From the NCBI GenBank assembly GCA_012521675.1, contig JAAYLU010000104.1:1-35346 (forward strand): 35,346 nucleotides of DNA. Reading direction: 5' to 3'. Position numbers and translations under genes: made by a program. This DNA comes from Synergistaceae bacterium. Lineage in GTDB: Bacteria > Synergistota > Synergistia > Synergistales > Aminobacteriaceae. Shown piece by piece: positions 13,751 through 27,834 of the stretch. How positions within the stretch are numbered: position 1 is the first letter of the stretch; every line of letters begins with the position of its first letter. The notes under the pieces were generated by a model. It ran no database searches. It was not told the origin of the DNA and saw only the letters and a program-made list of their open reading frames with translations.

Positions 13751-13788
13751 TTCACGTTGTACACATTTCAATGTTATAATGTTCAATG
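13751..13788 (+). promoter_or_regulatory. hut operon promoter with flanking direct repeat
   Basis: A consensus -10 TATAAT lies at 13775-13780 and is extended (TGT before it). A weak -35, TTCACG (13751-13756), sits 18 bases upstream. The heptamer TTCAATG occurs at 13767-13773 and 13782-13788, a 15-base period that brackets the -10. Such placement would suit a repressor or activator of histidine use. The start point would be near 13787, giving a leader of about 35 bases. Confidence 0.65.
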
Positions 13789-13821
13789 CATCGAAATATC
13801 TATCATCAGGAGGTTCTTCCA

Positions 13822-14733
13822 ATGGCCGGCAAGATAATCGAGTGTGTTCCCAATTTCAGTGAAGGGCGTCGCCAGGACGTTATCGAGGCGATAGTCGCTC
13901 CCTTCAAGACGACAAAGGGCTGCGGTCTCCTCGATTACCGGGCGGACGCCGACCACAACAGGCTGGTGGTGAGCCTTGCGGGTGCTCCGGAACCGGTTCA
14001 GGAGGCCCTGCTGAAGGCCGCTTCAATCGCTGTGAAAGAGATAGACATGAATAGCCACCAGGGGGCTCACCCTCGGATCGGAGCGGTGGACGTGATCCCC
14101 TTCACCCCTGTTTCCAATATCGCGATGGACGAGTGCATCGAGCTGTCGCACTCGTTCGGCGAGCGGTTTTTCAAGGAGCTTGGAGTGCCTGTCTACTTCT
14201 ACGAGGACTCGGCGAAGAGGCCGGAGCGCAAACGCCTCGAGGTGATACGCAAGGGGCAGTACGAGGCGCTCAAGACCGAGTCGGTCAACCCGGATCGGAA
14301 CCCCGACATTGGCGGTCCCGCCCTTCACCCGACCGCGGGCGCTACGGTCGTGGGTGCCCGCAGATTCCTCGTCGCGTTCAACGTAAATCTTAACACCGCA
14401 GACGAGGAGATAGCAAAGAGCATAGCCAACTGCGTCCGAGCATCCAGCGGCGGCTTCTGCCACGTCAAGGGAATGGGAGTGGCGCTGCACGAGCGCGGTA
14501 TGGCGCAGGTGAGCATGAACATCGTCGACTTCGAGAAGAACGCAATATACAGGGTGCTGGAGCTGATCAGGTTGGAGGCGCGCCGCTGGGGGGTCGAGGT
14601 TGTAGAGACGGAGATCTACGGCATGATCCCTGCTCTGGCGATGCTGGAGAGCGCAGCCTACTATATGCAGGTGAAGGACTTCGACCCGATGCAGGTGCTG
14701 GAGCTGAAGCTGCTGGCGGGCGGTGACGTCTGA
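13822..14733 (+). CDS. ftcD: Glutamate formimidoyltransferase
   Basis: Transfers the formimino group of N-formimino-L-glutamate to tetrahydrofolate, releasing glutamate: the last step of this version of histidine breakdown. The 303-residue protein spans the N and C subdomains of the formiminotransferase fold (IECVPNFSEGR at the start, LDYRADADHNRLVVSLAG, and HQGAHPRIGAVDVIPF, the active-site region). It lacks the cyclodeaminase domain fused in animals, as in many bacteria. ATG at 13822 has AGGAGG eight bases upstream; the frame is open to an ATG at 13786 that has no ribosome site and lies at the predicted transcript start. Its stop overlaps the hutI start (ATGA), showing tight operon coupling. 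No cyclodeaminase gene is in the window. Confidence 0.93.
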   Translation: MAGKIIECVPNFSEGRRQDVIEAIVAPFKTTKGCGLLDYRADADHNRLVVSLAGAPEPVQEALLKAASIAVKEIDMNSHQGAHPRIGAVDVIPFTPVSNIAMDECIELSHSFGERFFKELGVPVYFYEDSAKRPERKRLEVIRKGQYEALKTESVNPDRNPDIGGPALHPTAGATVVGARRFLVAFNVNLNTADEEIAKSIANCVRASSGGFCHVKGMGVALHERGMAQVSMNIVDFEKNAIYRVLELIRLEARRWGVEVVETEIYGMIPALAMLESAAYYMQVKDFDPMQVLELKLLAGGDV

Positions 14734-15974
14734 TGACGGTGAAGCTGTTCAGAAACGCGCGCATCTACACCCCCGAGGGGAGCGAACCCTCCACGGGCGC
14801 CAAGCAGGGGGAGGTGCGCTTGTTCGAAGGAGGCGCCCTTCTGGTCGATTGCGGCCTGATCGCGGCGATCGGCCCCGAAAGCATTGTGCTGGCGCACCCG
14901 GCCGGCAAGCTGATCGAAGAGGAGGTAGACTGCGAGGGGCGCTGCGTGATACCCGGCTTCGTCGATCCTCACACTCACATGTGCTTCGCCGCAAGGCGCG
15001 AGGAGGAGTTCTCGATGAGGCTCGCCGGCGCGGCCTACCTCGACATACTGAAAAAGGGCGGCGGCATACTCTCGTCCGTCAGACACGTGCGCGAATCGAC
15101 CGAGCAGGAGCTTTTCGAGAGGACTAAAGTCCTGGCCCTGTCGGCTCTCTCATTCGGCACCACCACGGTCGAGATGAAGAGCGGCTATGGGCTGGACACG
15201 GAGAGCGAGCTCAAGATGCTGTCGGTCATCCGCCGAACGGGCAGGGAGACGCCGCTGACCGTCGTGCCGACCTTCATGGGGGGGCACGCGGTCTCCGAGG
15301 AGTTCCAGGGGAACGCCGACGGCTACGTCGATATGGTTGTAAACGAGATGCTGCCCGCAGTTGAGAAGCAGGGTATCTCGGTCTTCAGCGACGTCTTCTG
15401 CGAGGAGGGTGTATTCTCGATCGAACAGACCAGGAGGCTGTTGCTAGCCTCCCGCAAGCATGGGCTGAAGCTCAAGATTCACGCCGACGAGGTGCACGAC
15501 ACGGGTGGCGCGGCTCTTGCGGCGGAACTCGGCGCGATCTCCGCCGAGCATCTGCTCGCTGCCAGCGACGAGGGTATAAAGGCTATGGCGGCCAGAGGAA
15601 CTATAGCCGTCCTGCTGCCCGCGACGGCCTACAGTCTGCGCAAGCCTTACGCAAGGGCCAGGACGATGATAGAGAGCGGCGTCCCGGTGGCCCTCGCGAC
15701 GGACTGCAACCCCGGGTCTTGCTTCACAGAGTCGATGCCCTTCGTCTTCGGGCTGGCCGTCATGGGGATGGGAATGACCGTAGAGGAGGCACTGACGGCT
15801 ACGACGAAGAACAGCGCCCACGCGATAGGCATGGGAGAGGAGTGCGGCACGCTGGAGACGGGTAAGAGCGCCGACCTGCTCGTACTCGACGGGGAATCCC
15901 CCGCCATTTTGGCCTACCATGCAGGGGTATCGCCGGTGACGAGGGTCTACAAGAAGGGAGAAAGAGTGGCATGA
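14733..15974 (+). CDS. hutI: Imidazolonepropionase
   Basis: Hydrolyses 4-imidazolone-5-propionate to N-formimino-L-glutamate, feeding FtcD directly. The 413-residue length is normal for HutI of the amidohydrolase superfamily. Visible ligands include the metal pair in DPHTHMCF, the substrate-binding AARREEEFSMRLAG region, HADEVHDTGG (metal His and catalytic Glu), the AEHL segment, and the terminal metal Asp in ATDCNPGS. The C-terminal GTLETGKSADLLVLDG is typical. It overlaps ftcD by one base and hutH by four (ATGA), so the three genes are translationally coupled. Confidence 0.95.
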   Translation: MTVKLFRNARIYTPEGSEPSTGAKQGEVRLFEGGALLVDCGLIAAIGPESIVLAHPAGKLIEEEVDCEGRCVIPGFVDPHTHMCFAARREEEFSMRLAGAAYLDILKKGGGILSSVRHVRESTEQELFERTKVLALSALSFGTTTVEMKSGYGLDTESELKMLSVIRRTGRETPLTVVPTFMGGHAVSEEFQGNADGYVDMVVNEMLPAVEKQGISVFSDVFCEEGVFSIEQTRRLLLASRKHGLKLKIHADEVHDTGGAALAAELGAISAEHLLAASDEGIKAMAARGTIAVLLPATAYSLRKPYARARTMIESGVPVALATDCNPGSCFTESMPFVFGLAVMGMGMTVEEALTATTKNSAHAIGMGEECGTLETGKSADLLVLDGESPAILAYHAGVSPVTRVYKKGERVA

Positions 15975-17512
15975 ACGGCGCGAACGACGGCGTCCTGCAC
16001 CTGGACGGGCTCTCGCTGACCCTCGAGGACGTGGTGCGGGTGGCCCGTGGAGAGATGAAAGTCGAGCTTGAGGACGAAGCGGCACGAAAGGTCGAGGCCG
16101 CGTCGGCCGTGGTCAGGAGGTGGGAGAACTCCGACGAGGTCGTCTACGGCGTCACCACCGGCTTCGGCGACCTGGCCAACGTGAACATCTCTCGCAAGGA
16201 CAGGAGGCTCCTGCAGGAGAACCTGCTGAAAAGCCACGCCTGCGGTGTGGGAGCCCCATTCCCGGAGGATATCACGAGGGCCATGATGCTTCTGCGGATC
16301 AACAGCCTCATCCGCGGCTTCTCCGGAATAAGCCTGTCCACCCTGAACCAGTACGTGGCCTTCCTCAACCTCGGAATAACCCCGGTGGTGCCGTCGCAGG
16401 GCTCGGTCGGAGCAAGCGGAGACCTCTGCCCCCTGTCTCACCTTGCCCTGCCCCTGCTCGGGCACGGCAAGGTCCGATACAAAGGACGGGTGGTTACGGC
16501 AGCCAAGGCCCTGCAGTCCGCGGGGCTGCGCCCAGTGCAGCTTGGGGCCAAGGAGGGGATTGCCCTCAACAACGGCACGGCCTGCATGGGCGCGATGGGA
16601 GTGATGGCGTTGACGGCGGCAGAGGACCTGGCCAAGACCGCCGACATCGCGGCGGCCCTCTCGATAGAGGCGCTTCACGGCGTGCCTTACGCGTTTGACG
16701 AGCGAACCCACGCCCTTCGCGCCCACAGGGGACAGGGCAGGGTGGCGCAGAATATCAGGCGGCTCATCAAGGGCAGCGAGATTATCGAGAAGTACCGCCG
16801 CGGCAGGGTCCAGGACGCCTATTCGCTCAGGTGCGCGCCGCAGGTCCACGGGGCCTCGCGAGACGCGCTCGATTACGTGCGCAGTACTCTCGAGGTGGAG
16901 ATAAACTCCGTCACCGACAATCCGCTGATCTTCACCGACGTCGAGGAGGCGATCAGCGGGGGCAACTTCCACGGACAGCCTTTGGCACTTGCGATGGACT
17001 TCTTCGGCATAGCCGTGGCCGAGCTGGCGAATATCTCCGAGCGAAGGCAGGCAAGGCTGGTCGACAGCTCCCTGTCCGGCCTGCCCCCCTTCCTGGTGGA
17101 GGAGAGCGGTCTGAACAGCGGGTTCATGATCGCCCAGTACACCTCCGCCGCGCTGGTGTCGGAGAACAAGGTGCTGGCCCACCCGTCGTCGGTCGACTCC
17201 ATCCCGACCTCGGCAAACCAGGAGGACCACGTTTCCATGGGAGCGTACTCGGCGCGCAAGGCGCTCTCTATCCTGGACAATGCCCGGAAGGTGATAGCGA
17301 TCGAGCTGTTCACCGCCTCTCAGGGACTGGACTTCAGCCGGCTCCTGAAGCCGGGAGCGGGGACGGTCGCCGCACACGAATCCGTCAGGAGCGCGGTACC
17401 CTTCCTGAAGCACGACGAGTATCTGCACCCGCTCATAGAGAGGGTGGAGGCGCTGGTGCGCAGAGGCGCGGTAGTAAAGGCCGTGGAGGAGGCAATAGGT
17501 CCGTTGAACTGA
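15971..17512 (+). CDS. hutH: Histidine ammonia-lyase
   Basis: Deaminates L-histidine to urocanate and ammonia, the entry step of histidine catabolism. The protein has 513 residues, the usual length. The MIO prosthetic group forms from A148-S149-G150 in GSVGASGDLCPLSH, and the catalytic tyrosine lies in the early VYGVTTGFGDL motif. FDERTHALRAHRGQ, QDAYSLRCAPQVHGA and SVTDNPLIF are also family hallmarks. It is the last gene of the operon and is followed by a strong terminator. The operon encodes steps 1, 3 and 4 only; urocanate hydratase (step 2) is not in the window, so it must be unlinked or lie elsewhere in the genome. Confidence 0.95.
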   Translation: MNGANDGVLHLDGLSLTLEDVVRVARGEMKVELEDEAARKVEAASAVVRRWENSDEVVYGVTTGFGDLANVNISRKDRRLLQENLLKSHACGVGAPFPEDITRAMMLLRINSLIRGFSGISLSTLNQYVAFLNLGITPVVPSQGSVGASGDLCPLSHLALPLLGHGKVRYKGRVVTAAKALQSAGLRPVQLGAKEGIALNNGTACMGAMGVMALTAAEDLAKTADIAAALSIEALHGVPYAFDERTHALRAHRGQGRVAQNIRRLIKGSEIIEKYRRGRVQDAYSLRCAPQVHGASRDALDYVRSTLEVEINSVTDNPLIFTDVEEAISGGNFHGQPLALAMDFFGIAVAELANISERRQARLVDSSLSGLPPFLVEESGLNSGFMIAQYTSAALVSENKVLAHPSSVDSIPTSANQEDHVSMGAYSARKALSILDNARKVIAIELFTASQGLDFSRLLKPGAGTVAAHESVRSAVPFLKHDEYLHPLIERVEALVRRGAVVKAVEEAIGPLN

Positions 17513-19767: not shown

Positions 19768-19844
19768 CGTCGGGCTTGCTTTAGTCCCGCTTTGACCTTA
19801 ACATCGTTCATTACGGCCATCAAGGAAAAATGGAGGGGAATGTG

Positions 19845-20753
19845 TTGAAAAAGTCTTTGCGTGCTGTATTTGCGGTTCTCTTCGTCCTGTCTCTGCTCTC
19901 CGGCGCGGCACTGGCGAGTTCGGCCCTGGTGTTCCAGACGGACTTCGGCCTCAAGGACGGCGCTGTGTCGGCCATGAAGGGTGTCGCGTTCGGCGTGGAC
20001 CCGGGCCTTCCCATGTTCGACCTCACCCACGAGATCCCGGCCTACTCGATCTGGGACGGCGCCTACAGGCTTCATCAGACGATGGAGTATTGGCCCTCGG
20101 GCACTGTGTTCGTCTCGGTCATAGACCCCGGGGTCGGCACGGAGCGCGGTTCCATAGTCGCCCTGACGAAGGACGGCAGGTACGTGGTGACGCCGGACAA
20201 CGGAACGCTCACCTTCATAGCCGAGACGGTCGGCTTCGAGGCGGTCAGGATGATCGACGACGCCAGGCACAGATTGGCGGGCTCGGAGGAATCCTACACC
20301 TTCTTCGGTCGTGATCTTTACGCCTACACGGGCGCCAAGCTGGCATCGGGCGCGATGGCCTTCGAAGAGGTCGGGCCGCTTCTCAAGGGAGACGTGCTTC
20401 TAATCCCCTACAGAAGGGCAGAGTTGACGGACGGGGCGCTTCACGGGAACATCCCGGTGCTTGACGTGCAGTACGGCAATATTTGGAGCAACATACCTAA
20501 GGGATTATTCGACGAGCTGGCACCGGAGATAGGAGACAGGTTCGACGTTGCGATCTTCAGGGAGGGCGAGAAGGTCTACGGCGGGGTCATTCCCTACGTG
20601 AACACGTTCGGCGACGTCCCGGACGGAGAGCCGCTTCTCTACTTCAACAGCCTGATGAACCTGTCGCTTGCGCTTAACATGGACAGCTTCGCCGGTGTCC
20701 ACGGGATAGAGTCGGGGGCGGAGTGGTCCATCTCGGCGAGCCCGGCCAAGTAG
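19845..20753 (+). CDS. Exported SAM hydrolase/adenosyltransferase (DUF62)
   Basis: Member of the DUF62 family (PF01887/PF20257), which uses water or halide to split S-adenosylmethionine; most bacterial members give adenosine and methionine. The N-terminal domain shows FQTDFGLKDGAVSAMKGV, IDPGVGT and VTPDNGTLTF; GRDLYAY and a C-terminal beta domain follow. TTG at 19845 is preferred over ATG at 19830 because GGAGGGG lies six bases before it and gives a clean signal peptide: KK, a hydrophobic core, then ALA cleavage at about residue 24. Export is unusual, since SAM is a cytoplasmic metabolite. An alternative substrate in the envelope, or scavenging of external SAM, is possible. It sits between panB (77-base gap) and an amidohydrolase (30-base gap). 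Confidence 0.82.
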   Translation: MKKSLRAVFAVLFVLSLLSGAALASSALVFQTDFGLKDGAVSAMKGVAFGVDPGLPMFDLTHEIPAYSIWDGAYRLHQTMEYWPSGTVFVSVIDPGVGTERGSIVALTKDGRYVVTPDNGTLTFIAETVGFEAVRMIDDARHRLAGSEESYTFFGRDLYAYTGAKLASGAMAFEEVGPLLKGDVLLIPYRRAELTDGALHGNIPVLDVQYGNIWSNIPKGLFDELAPEIGDRFDVAIFREGEKVYGGVIPYVNTFGDVPDGEPLLYFNSLMNLSLALNMDSFAGVHGIESGAEWSISASPAK

Positions 20754-24898: not shown

Positions 24899-25945
24899 AT
24901 GTCAGGGTTAAGAAAAGGTTGTTGGTTGCTGTTATTGGCGGTGTTCCTGGTCGGGGTTTTCGCCCCGGTGGCGGGCGCGGACGCGCCCAAGAAGATCATA
25001 TGGCGCTCCTCGGGACACGGGCCGGCCTCGGATCCCTCGCAGATCTACCATGATCTGCTCTGCAAGGCGATCACTGAGGCCTCCGGCGGCAGGCTGGAGA
25101 TCAAGCCGTTCGTCGGCGGCTCGATCGTACCGGCCTACAAGGAGCTCGATGCCGTTCACGAGAACGTGCTGCAGCTCTGCTACACCTGCCCGATGTACAA
25201 CCTCGACAAGTGGTCGGCAGCCGGCCTGATAAGCTCGCGGCCGGGCGTGCTCGCGGGCGAGGCGCTCCGGACGTGGTTCAACTACGGCGGCGGCGCGGAC
25301 CTGATGAACAAGATGATGGAAGGCTACAACGTAATGACCTTCCCAGGCGCCCTCTCCCCCCTTCCCGAGGAGGTCTTCTTCCACTCCAAGAAGAAGATAG
25401 AGAGCGTGGAGGACCTGAAGTCCATCAAGGCACGCTGCATGGGCGACGGCGGAGAGATTCTTCAGAGGATGGGAATGGCCACGGTCATAATACCCGGCGG
25501 AGAGCTCTACGAGGCCATGAAGCGCGGCACGATCGACGCATTCGAGTATTCGACTCTGGCGTCCAACTGGAACATGCACTTCAACGAGGTGGCCGATTAC
25601 GTCTACCTTTCGCCTGTGCGCGCCCCGTGCGACCCGCAGGTCTTCTTCGTCAACAAGGACGCTTGGAACGAGCTGCCTGAGGACCTCCAGCTGCTGGTCC
25701 AGACTTTCGTAGACAAGTACACCCAGGCGCAGCACGAGTTCCTGGTGTACGAGTCCATACTGGCGCTTGAGAAGTTCAAGGAGTACGGCAACAAGGTCGT
25801 CAAGATCCCCGACGAGGTGAACAAGGCGATAGAGGAGGAGGCCGCAAAATTCTACGAGGAGAAGATAGCAAGCGAGCCCCCGATCTTCGGCGAGATCTAC
25901 AACTCGATGAAGAGCTACGGCGAGTCGTACAACTTGATGAGATAA
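24899..25945 (+). CDS. TRAP transporter substrate-binding protein (DctP)
   Basis: Periplasmic solute receptor of a tripartite ATP-independent transporter, 348 residues. The signal peptide runs to about residue 27 (hydrophobic LLLLAVFLVGVFAPVAGA, then DAPKK). The mature protein follows the DctP fold (VGGSIVPAYKELDAV, a central SVEDLKSIKARCMGDGGEIL and the GGELYEAMKRGTIDAFEYSTL signature around residue 200). DctP proteins carry organic acids, amino-acid derivatives or other carboxylates; the ligand here is not identifiable. ATG has a strong AAAGGAGG eight bases upstream. It is the first gene of a dctPQM operon and lies directly downstream of an exported FAD oxidoreductase. Confidence 0.9.
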   Translation: MSGLRKGCWLLLLAVFLVGVFAPVAGADAPKKIIWRSSGHGPASDPSQIYHDLLCKAITEASGGRLEIKPFVGGSIVPAYKELDAVHENVLQLCYTCPMYNLDKWSAAGLISSRPGVLAGEALRTWFNYGGGADLMNKMMEGYNVMTFPGALSPLPEEVFFHSKKKIESVEDLKSIKARCMGDGGEILQRMGMATVIIPGGELYEAMKRGTIDAFEYSTLASNWNMHFNEVADYVYLSPVRAPCDPQVFFVNKDAWNELPEDLQLLVQTFVDKYTQAQHEFLVYESILALEKFKEYGNKVVKIPDEVNKAIEEEAAKFYEEKIASEPPIFGEIYNSMKSYGESYNLMR

Positions 25946-25979
25946 TGCCGTCCCATCCTACGGACGCAAGGAGAAGAGC

Positions 25980-26498
25980 ATGACCTCTTTGAGACGTCTC
26001 TTGAAAGCAATCGACGCGCTAAGTGAACTGTCCGGGGCCGTGGGGAAGTGGTGCGCCCTGATCCTTGTGTTCGCCGGGACCTACGAGGCCGTGGCCAGGC
26101 ATTTCTTTGACGCGCCCACCATCTGGGCGTACGATACCCTCTGCATGGCCGGAGGCGCCCTTTACCTGCTGGGCGCCTCCTACGGCTACCTTTACGACTC
26201 CCATACGCGCGTGGACATGTTCTACAACATGCTGCCCGACAGGGGCAAGGCGTTCATGAACGTGATCTGCTCGCTCCTCCTGTTCTTCCCCCTCATGGGT
26301 GTCATGCTGTGGATGTCTGTCACCTGGGCGGTGCGCGCATGGAGGATAAACGAGGTGTTCTTCAACAGCTTCTGGTATCCTCCCGCAGGCCCGTACCGGA
26401 CGGTGTTCGCTGTCGGACTCCTGCTGCTGATGCTGCAGGCCGTCGCGAACTTCGTCCGGGATCTATACTTCACGGTCAGGGGTGAGACTCTTGATTGA
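25980..26498 (+). CDS. TRAP transporter small permease (DctQ)
   Basis: Small membrane subunit of the TRAP transporter, 172 residues with four predicted helices (about 25-45, 55-75, 92-115 and 135-155). The family's conserved acidic and aromatic pattern is recognisable in YEAVARHFFDAPTIWAYD and SHTRVDMFYNMLPDR. It forms the membrane complex with the large permease and receives substrate from DctP. ATG has AAGGAG five bases upstream. Its last eight bases overlap the dctM start, which points to translational coupling. Confidence 0.9.
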   Translation: MTSLRRLLKAIDALSELSGAVGKWCALILVFAGTYEAVARHFFDAPTIWAYDTLCMAGGALYLLGASYGYLYDSHTRVDMFYNMLPDRGKAFMNVICSLLLFFPLMGVMLWMSVTWAVRAWRINEVFFNSFWYPPAGPYRTVFAVGLLLLMLQAVANFVRDLYFTVRGETLD

Positions 26499-27834
26499 AC
26501 TCAGCGCCGAGGCGATAACCGTCATGATGCTGGGGGGGGTCTTCGTCCTGGTTATGACCGGATTCCCCATTGCCTTTGTCATAGGGAGCGTGGCCTTCCT
26601 CTCGGGTCTCGCGGTCTTCGGCCCGACGGTCACCTTCCATATACTGTACAGCCGCTTCTACGATCTGTCCTTGAACTACCCCTACCTGGCGGTTCCCCTG
26701 TTCACTTTCATGGGGGTGATACTGCAACACTCCGGGGTTACCAAGGACCTGTACCAATCGCTCTACGAGGCCATGGGAAGGCTGAAGGGCGGGCTGGCGG
26801 TTGTCACGATAATCTTCGGGACCATACTCGCAGCATGCCTCGGAGTCATCGCCGCCTCAGTGACAATACTGACCCTCATCGCGCTCGCGCCGATGATAAA
26901 CAGAGGATATGACAAGTCGCTGGCATCCGGCTCGATAATCGCGGCCGGGACGCTCGGAATACTGATCCCCCCGAGCATCATGCTGGTGGTCTATGCGCCC
27001 CAGGCCGGGCTCTCGGTAGGCCAGATGTTCATGGGCGCGGTATTCCCGGGACTGCTGCTGTCGGCGCTCTATATCACCTACGTGGTGATCAGGTGCAGGA
27101 TCAATCCGTCCCTCGGCCCCGCTATACCGGAGGAGCAGATGGAGCCGTTCGACTCCGCAAAGCTGGTACGCCTGCTGAAGTCGCTCGTGCCACCCGTTTT
27201 GCTGATAGTGGCGGTACTGGGGACCATATTCGCGGGGATAGCCCCTCCGACGGAGGCGGCGGCGGTCGGATGCACCGCGGCAATACTGCTCGCGATCGCG
27301 TACAGAAAATTCAGCTGGGGGTTGATGCGCCAGGCGATGCTTGAGACCATGCGCGTCAGCGCCTTCGTGGTAACAATAGCAGCCATGTGCTACGCCTTCG
27401 TCGGGATCTTCATGAACGCAGGCGCTGGGGACGTGGTAGCGGACTTCATCCTGTCCGTTCCGGGCGGCAAGTGGATGTCCTTCTTCGTGATAATGGCGAT
27501 AGTCTTCCTTCTCGGGATGTTCATCGAGTGGATCGGCATTGTCTTCATCGTGGTGCCCGTCTTCTCCCCGATTCTCGAGTCGCTGGGGTTCAACCCCCTG
27601 TGGGCCGGGATGATGATCTGCATAAACATGCAGATGGCCTTCCAGACGCCGCCGATGGCGATGTCGATATTCGTGCTGAAGGGCACGGCGCCGAAGGAGC
27701 TCGGGGTGACCATCGGGGATATCATATGGGGGGTCATCCCGTTCATACTGATCATCATGCTCGTGCTGGTGCTCTGCTCATTCTTCCCCGGCATCATAAC
27801 CTGGCTGCCGGAGATGATGATCGGCAAGGCCTGA
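26491..27834 (+). CDS. TRAP transporter large permease (DctM)
   Basis: Large membrane subunit that uses a sodium or proton gradient to move the carboxylate substrate. It has 447 residues and about a dozen hydrophobic helices. TGFPIAFVIG, the GTLGILIPPSIMLVVYAPQAGLSVGQMFMGAVFPG stretch (read in two parts) and PPTEAAAVG are strong DctM hallmarks. TTG at 26491 is chosen because AGGGG lies eight bases before it; the GTG at 26482 overlaps that site and is less likely. A terminator follows. The long PPSI segment shows no disruption, so the transporter should be complete. Confidence 0.9.
   Translation: MIELSAEAITVMMLGGVFVLVMTGFPIAFVIGSVAFLSGLAVFGPTVTFHILYSRFYDLSLNYPYLAVPLFTFMGVILQHSGVTKDLYQSLYEAMGRLKGGLAVVTIIFGTILAACLGVIAASVTILTLIALAPMINRGYDKSLASGSIIAAGTLGILIPPSIMLVVYAPQAGLSVGQMFMGAVFPGLLLSALYITYVVIRCRINPSLGPAIPEEQMEPFDSAKLVRLLKSLVPPVLLIVAVLGTIFAGIAPPTEAAAVGCTAAILLAIAYRKFSWGLMRQAMLETMRVSAFVVTIAAMCYAFVGIFMNAGAGDVVADFILSVPGGKWMSFFVIMAIVFLLGMFIEWIGIVFIVVPVFSPILESLGFNPLWAGMMICINMQMAFQTPPMAMSIFVLKGTAPKELGVTIGDIIWGVIPFILIIMLVLVLCSFFPGIITWLPEMMIGKA

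Follow-up and report, generated by a model that had tools for sequence, protein, structure and literature searches.

The window analysed here is the whole 35,346-nucleotide stretch of contig JAAYLU010000104.1 from a Synergistaceae bacterium. A gene on its forward strand was found to encode a homologue of the SAM hydroxide adenosyltransferases (DUF62). The following features were assigned at this locus:

19832–19838, + strand: ribosome-binding site GGAGGGG for the TTG start; the upstream ATGGAGGGGA is identical in the nearest relative (L012)
19845–20753, + strand: gene with a TTG start for a 302-aa homologue of SAM hydroxide adenosyltransferases (DUF62), predicted to be exported
19845–19916, + strand: Sec-type signal peptide of 24 residues, with cleavage predicted after ALA (between A24 and S25) from the AXA motif
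19929–20375, + strand: SAM_HAT_N domain (PF01887), Pfam match
20124–20126, + strand: Asp94, triad Asp (D68 of PH0463), kept
20145–20147, + strand: Arg101, triad Arg (R75 of PH0463), kept
20304–20306, + strand: Phe154, at the position of the triad His (H127 of PH0463); the window protein reads TFFGRD, most relatives TFHGRD
20445–20726, + strand: SAM_HAT_C domain (PF20257), Pfam match, with conserved Asp207, Asn212, Trp214 and Ser269

The translation of 19845–20753 begins, with the initial Leu read as Met, with MKKSLRAVFAVLFVLSLLSGAALA followed by SS. The first-pass annotation had selected this TTG by its ribosome-binding site and had described a textbook signal peptide ending in ALA, and both assignments held. 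An in-frame ATG was also present upstream at 19830. Because L012 shares the upstream ATGGAGGGGA and has an ATG exactly at the position of the TTG, the start at 19845 was favoured, and the signal is present whichever of the two starts is used. The 24 N-terminal residues comprise basic residues, then a long hydrophobic core, and ALA at the end. The peak hydropathy of this segment over 12 residues was 3.02, compared with 3.22 for the DctP binding protein encoded in the window and 0.02–1.50 for six other genes in which neither a membrane nor an export segment would be expected. Among relatives, the residues of the N-terminal extension vary and its hydrophobicity is kept. These features indicate a strong Sec-type signal peptide, and export of the DUF62 homologue is well supported by them. 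A promoter and terminator scan found no sites.

Both domains were recognised by Pfam, PF01887 with an E value of 8.2e-47 (159.1 bits, cut-off 26.3) and PF20257 with an E value of 2.1e-19 (70 bits, cut-off 25.5), which confirmed the DUF62 identity proposed earlier. A second PF01887 gene was not found in the genome of 2.2 Mb. The protein remained below the cut-offs of the NCBIfam (R)-SAM hydrolase equivalogs NF058624 (114.9 of 350 bits) and NF053629 (107.5 of 470 bits) and of the fluorinase model (75.8 of 400 bits). "SAM hydrolase" is a family name, applied here to a protein without the triad His. A monomer predicted from a 36-row alignment had a mean pLDDT of 92 and a pTM of 0.85, and it matched the Thermotoga maritima protein 2zbu (Z 31.9, rmsd 2.1, 263 aligned residues), the chlorinase SalL with SAM, 6ryz (Z 29.5, rmsd 2.4, 265 aligned), and PH0463 with SAH, 2wr8 (Z 27.4, rmsd 2.4, 256 aligned). 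The two-domain fold of PH0463 and SalL was thus recovered in the predicted monomer.

Among 185 Synergistota genomes, PF01887 was found in 21, with 12 proteins carrying an N-terminal extension and 9 starting near the domain. In species-representative genomes, the best 80 of at least 574 confirmed relatives were used, and all 80 had a signal-like N-terminus; since the query contained exported proteins, this count describes near relatives and not DUF62 as a whole. Of the 79 relatives parsed by script, 77 contain ten consecutive residues with a hydrophobicity of 1.6 or more and 75 have a basic residue among the first ten; the N-termini of L066, L092 and L077 were judged signal-like by eye. A loose lipobox pattern matched 12 of the 79, so some exported relatives may be lipoproteins. 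By record title, the best 80 comprised 34 Bacteroidota, 22 Pseudomonadota, 12 Verrucomicrobiota, 5 Bacillota and 2 KSB1, and one each from Synergistota, Coprothermobacterota, Thermotogota, Spirochaetota and Fusobacteriota, that is, nine named phyla plus KSB1. In the Fervidobacterium relative (L039:6001–7923), a signal-like N-terminus is combined with SAM_HAT_N, two stretches of SAM_HAT_C and a domain resembling tyrosine phosphatases (PF13350).

PF01887 proteins of the cytosolic type (n = 40) start 2–16 residues before the domain core; 29 of these 40 came from a Bacteroidota survey, in which PF01887 was present in 148 of 198 genomes and the 29 proteins measured, from the 30 best-scoring loci fetched, were all of the cytosolic type. 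In three of the three Bacteroidota genomes tested (G185, G191 and G195) a second PF01887 gene was found besides the exported one, and nine other genomes in the same comparison had one PF01887 gene each. Two of these three additional copies were read, L131, whose start adjoins the domain core, and L132, which is ambiguous upstream of the nearest start. Both have a degenerate triad (Asp-His-Pro and Asn-Arg-Ser, respectively).

On both trees, whose support is SH-aLRT only and whose branches are long, the exported or cytosolic label required only two changes, and the window protein, with its signal peptide, grouped with exported relatives. Proteins of Listeria and Enterococcus without a signal also grouped with the exported proteins and have perhaps lost it. 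Judged from sequences and trees, exported DUF62 proteins form a subfamily, and the signal is not general in DUF62. The signal peptide, regarded at first as an isolated oddity, therefore proves to be a regular feature of one subfamily, present in 12 of the 21 Synergistota proteins and in the best 80 of at least 574 relatives. The first-pass annotation had asked whether such signals would prove routine in members with a known role; the former was found for this subfamily, and a known role for it was not found in print. Among the literature titles searched, which leave most subscription journals outside their coverage, none named an exported DUF62 protein or a role for the exported subfamily. That the start or the signal was misread and the protein is cytoplasmic is extremely unlikely: the ATG at 19830 and the signal-less Listeria and Enterococcus relatives might be read in this way, but the hydrophobic N-terminal extension is present in 12 of 12 Synergistota proteins of the exported type and in the 80 nearest relatives.

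In the alignment with solved structures, the window protein reads TFFGRD where the Thermotoga protein reads TFHGRD. The catalytic triad is named D68-R75-H127 in PMC4859513, and in PMC10491745 the Asp-Arg-His triad is described as strictly conserved in DUF62 and water-activating. The triad of the hydrolases was incomplete in the window protein, with Asp94 and Arg101 present and His changed to Phe154. The halide site that replaces the triad Asp and Arg in halogenases was likewise absent, both residues being kept. In the exported clade (93 rows), Asp was kept in 93, Arg in 92 and His in 80; the other 13 rows had Phe (8), Tyr (3) or Leu (2), corresponding to five changes on the tree. With two Bacilli relatives added, His was present in 82 of 95 aligned rows. 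The 12 exported Synergistota proteins comprised 3 with His, 7 with Phe and 2 with Leu. Of the 43 cytosolic relatives in the first tree, 20 were used in the second, where the two Bacilli proteins were counted as cytosolic; 15 of these 20 had His and the rest Asp, Gln, Pro or Ser. An exported DUF62 protein of Coprothermobacterota (L030:3248–4180) has Phe for the triad His, Glu for Arg, and a possible lipobox (LSGC).

The pocket is otherwise well kept. Asp207, Asn212, Trp214 and Ser269 align with the same residues of SalL, and the pocket roles of the SalL-aligned residues are in part those described in PMC4859513. The pocket-aligned D33, D207 and S269 were present in 95 of 95 rows, and N212 and W214 in 94. 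Residue 270 was Leu in 91 of 95 rows, at a position where SalL has Arg after an Asn-Ser pair. Besides 154, no alignment column combined a residue shared by at least 90% of the 82 His-type rows with the absence of that residue from all 9 Phe/Leu Synergistota rows; the groups were set by residue 154 itself. From the predicted fold and these residues it follows that the window protein would bind an adenosyl compound. Cleavage of SAM by it is doubtful because Phe154 replaces the triad His; as the triad is described as strictly conserved and water-activating in PMC10491745 and PMC4859513, hydrolysis of SAM may be lost where the His is missing.

Compared with three relatives of its genus, all of the Phe form, the window gene gave dN/dS values of 0.075–0.085 by the Nei-Gojobori method (0.076 against L012; 0.037–0.180 for other pairs), and these are rough, since dS was 0.9–1.5 in the window pairs. 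A pseudogene, or relaxed selection after loss of the His, was rejected on these values. Judging by the low ratios, purifying selection appears to maintain the Phe form.

The neighbouring genes gave little functional context in Synergistota. The first-pass annotation had pointed to a PanB-like gene and further hydrolase or oxidoreductase genes beside the DUF62 gene. The adjacency exists, but it is a weak clue, with panB adjoining in only 1 of 11 other exported Synergistota loci. These 11 loci, two of them on short contigs, were searched directly for the neighbours by tblastn. Of these loci, only that of the nearest species (L106) had panB and the FAD oxidoreductase. The M20 peptidase was present there and in L107 and L108, and the amidohydrolase in L106, L107, L114, L115 and L116, directly adjacent only in L106. 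The TRAP genes at 24899–27834 of the window recurred only in L107. The adjacent panB is the only PanB gene of the genome. In view of the single-copy panB and the poor recurrence, an operon of PanB, amidohydrolase and FAD oxidoreductase was rejected as functional context. The FAD-dependent oxidoreductase (PF12831; 22506–24752, + strand), two genes downstream, has a hydrophobic, export-like N-terminus of its own (peak hydropathy 2.74). Elsewhere in the window lies a histidine-degradation cluster (13786–17512, + strand), with hutI and hutH above the NCBIfam cut-offs and, ahead of them, an ORF (13786–14733) read by eye as formiminotransferase.

Of 34 Bacteroidota loci, 9 have a TonB-dependent receptor of one type near the gene. 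The receptor takes one of three positions: directly upstream (L044, L052, L068, L070 and L076), directly downstream (L050 and L065), or upstream with a permease between (L082 and L093). The intervening gene of L082 encodes an amino-acid permease, and that of L093 was assigned by its near-identical start. Two of these receptors served as the queries by which the set was identified (E 1e-3), and TonB domains were confirmed by Pfam in the three tested (L044, L050 and L065). TonB receptors are abundant in Bacteroidota, and some adjacency is therefore expected by chance. When three genomes were searched with the L044 receptor, the receptor linked to DUF62 came 2nd among 84 matching stretches, 2nd among 50 and 1st among 17, respectively. 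These ranks favour a specific pairing of DUF62 protein and receptor, despite top matches unlinked to a DUF62 gene in two of the three genomes and 25 of 34 loci without such a receptor within the sequence stretch examined. Compared with solved TonB receptors, the L050 receptor matched only N-terminal stretches, which indicated no substrate. Outside Bacteroidota, a recurrent partner was not seen among the 84 loci, 11 of which, none from Bacteroidota, had neighbour lists that missed the target. In Sebaldella (L073), a gene for a class-II cAMP phosphodiesterase (PF02112) with an apparent signal sequence adjoins.

A search with the exported E. coli homologue found it in 2374 of 5426 complete E. coli genomes, and the DNA of the window itself, used as query against E. 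coli genomes, gave no match. In one annotated example the E. coli gene lies between yigE and uvrD. A plasmid or mobile origin was considered and dropped as unsupported: the closest matches in a "plasmids" collection (E. coli, Aeromonas and one Listeria) were records of 2.9–4.9 Mb; another Listeria record measured 0.59 Mb. One Enterococcus faecium match was on a 37-kb plasmid beside ECF transporter genes. There (L023:481–4446), a signal-less DUF62 gene appears to share an operon with the genes for the S (PF07155), ATP-binding and T components of an ECF transporter, which may point to an imported substrate.

Periplasmic salvage or clearance of an adenosyl-sulfonium is the most economical reading of these observations. 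We put at about even the chance that the window protein is a periplasmic adenosyl-sulfonium (SAM) salvage protein of the exported SAM hydroxide adenosyltransferase subfamily, with chemistry slowed or changed in this lineage. The exported subfamily would cleave SAM, its (R,S) epimer or another adenosyl-sulfonium reaching the periplasm, and the products, adenosine plus methionine or the corresponding thioether, would be taken up; cleavage of SAM is inferred for the His-type members. In some Bacteroidota, the linked TonB-dependent receptor would carry the substrate across the outer membrane. In the window lineage, Phe154 would remove one water-activating group, and hydrolysis might proceed slowly by Asp-Arg alone, or a related substrate might be used instead. 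The TonB receptor, the permease and the cAMP phosphodiesterase were counted as hints of salvage. The earlier proposal that a secreted DUF62 protein implies a ligand outside the cytoplasm or a changed function was supported, and a changed function gained further support because the catalytic His is Phe154. PMC12120602 doubts (R,S)-SAM hydrolysis as the physiological role even of a characterised DUF62 protein, and argues that some DUF62 enzymes may have another function. Among the titles listed in a search for literature on extracellular SAM, none was usable.

Other explanations were weighed against salvage. The protein of this Synergistota lineage could have given up catalysis and act in the periplasm as a binding protein or a sensor, with SAM, SAH or adenosine as ligand; hydrolysis would then be off, and the pocket would still hold the ligand. 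Loss of the His with the other checked pocket positions kept would fit this, as would purifying selection and the lack of a second column separating the His-type from the 9 Phe/Leu Synergistota rows, groups that residue 154 itself defines; but the remaining triad residues Asp94 and Arg101 are kept and no conserved partner gene was found, the TRAP genes recurring in just one of 11 other loci, and we consider such a role unlikely. A substrate other than SAM for the whole exported subfamily, namely another adenosyl or nucleoside compound, for example one imported by the linked receptor in Bacteroidota, is possible at a similarly low level of confidence. It would account for the one receptor type beside the gene, for the additional PF01887 copy in each of the three tested Bacteroidota genomes, and for Leu270 in place of the SalL Arg; the conservation of Asp207, Asn212, Trp214 and Ser269, which match SalL residues, argues against it.

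Loss of the His might also admit attack of a halide, thiolate or phosphate on C5', making the protein an exported adenosyltransferase akin to the chlorinase and fluorinase. The halogenases of this superfamily lack the triad, according to PMC10491745 and PMC4859513, and in SalL the residue aligned with Phe154 is Tyr. However, SalL departs from the triad at the Asp position (Tyr70) and at the Arg position as well, and both residues are kept here; StDUF62 made no chloroadenosine, as stated in PMC12120602; and the window genes searched against Pfam included no halometabolite gene. This chemistry was therefore considered very unlikely. Returning to salvage, its broadest form is speculative and rather improbable: that many phyla, and more than two-fifths of complete E. 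coli genomes, would capture and cleave an extracellular adenosyl-sulfonium such as SAM in the periplasm, some Bacteroidota with a dedicated TonB receptor, and that the His-less form of Synergistota would perform new chemistry or pure binding. The spread of the subfamily across many phyla and its frequency in E. coli, where knock-outs are easy, make extracytoplasmic SAM-cleaving chemistry directly testable, and the His-to-Phe lineage provides a natural experiment on the need for the water-activating triad.

Compared with known systems, the window protein shares with the DUF62 hydrolases PH0463, MJ1651 and StDUF62 both domains, the predicted fold (Z 24–32), the triad Asp and Arg and the pocket residues. 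It differs from them by its signal peptide, by Phe154 in place of the triad His and by scores below both NCBIfam hydrolase cut-offs. With SalL and FlA it has in common the fold and the FGN/YGN-x-W motif, and, like the Tyr of SalL, its residue at the triad His position is aromatic; in contrast to these halogenases, it keeps the Asp and Arg that are changed in SalL, it is predicted to be exported, and no halogenation context was seen. A further parallel was E. coli WP_000751627.1, annotated as "SAM hydrolase/SAM-dependent halogenase family protein", which is 57% identical and likewise has a signal peptide and the triad Asp and Arg, but retains the triad His.
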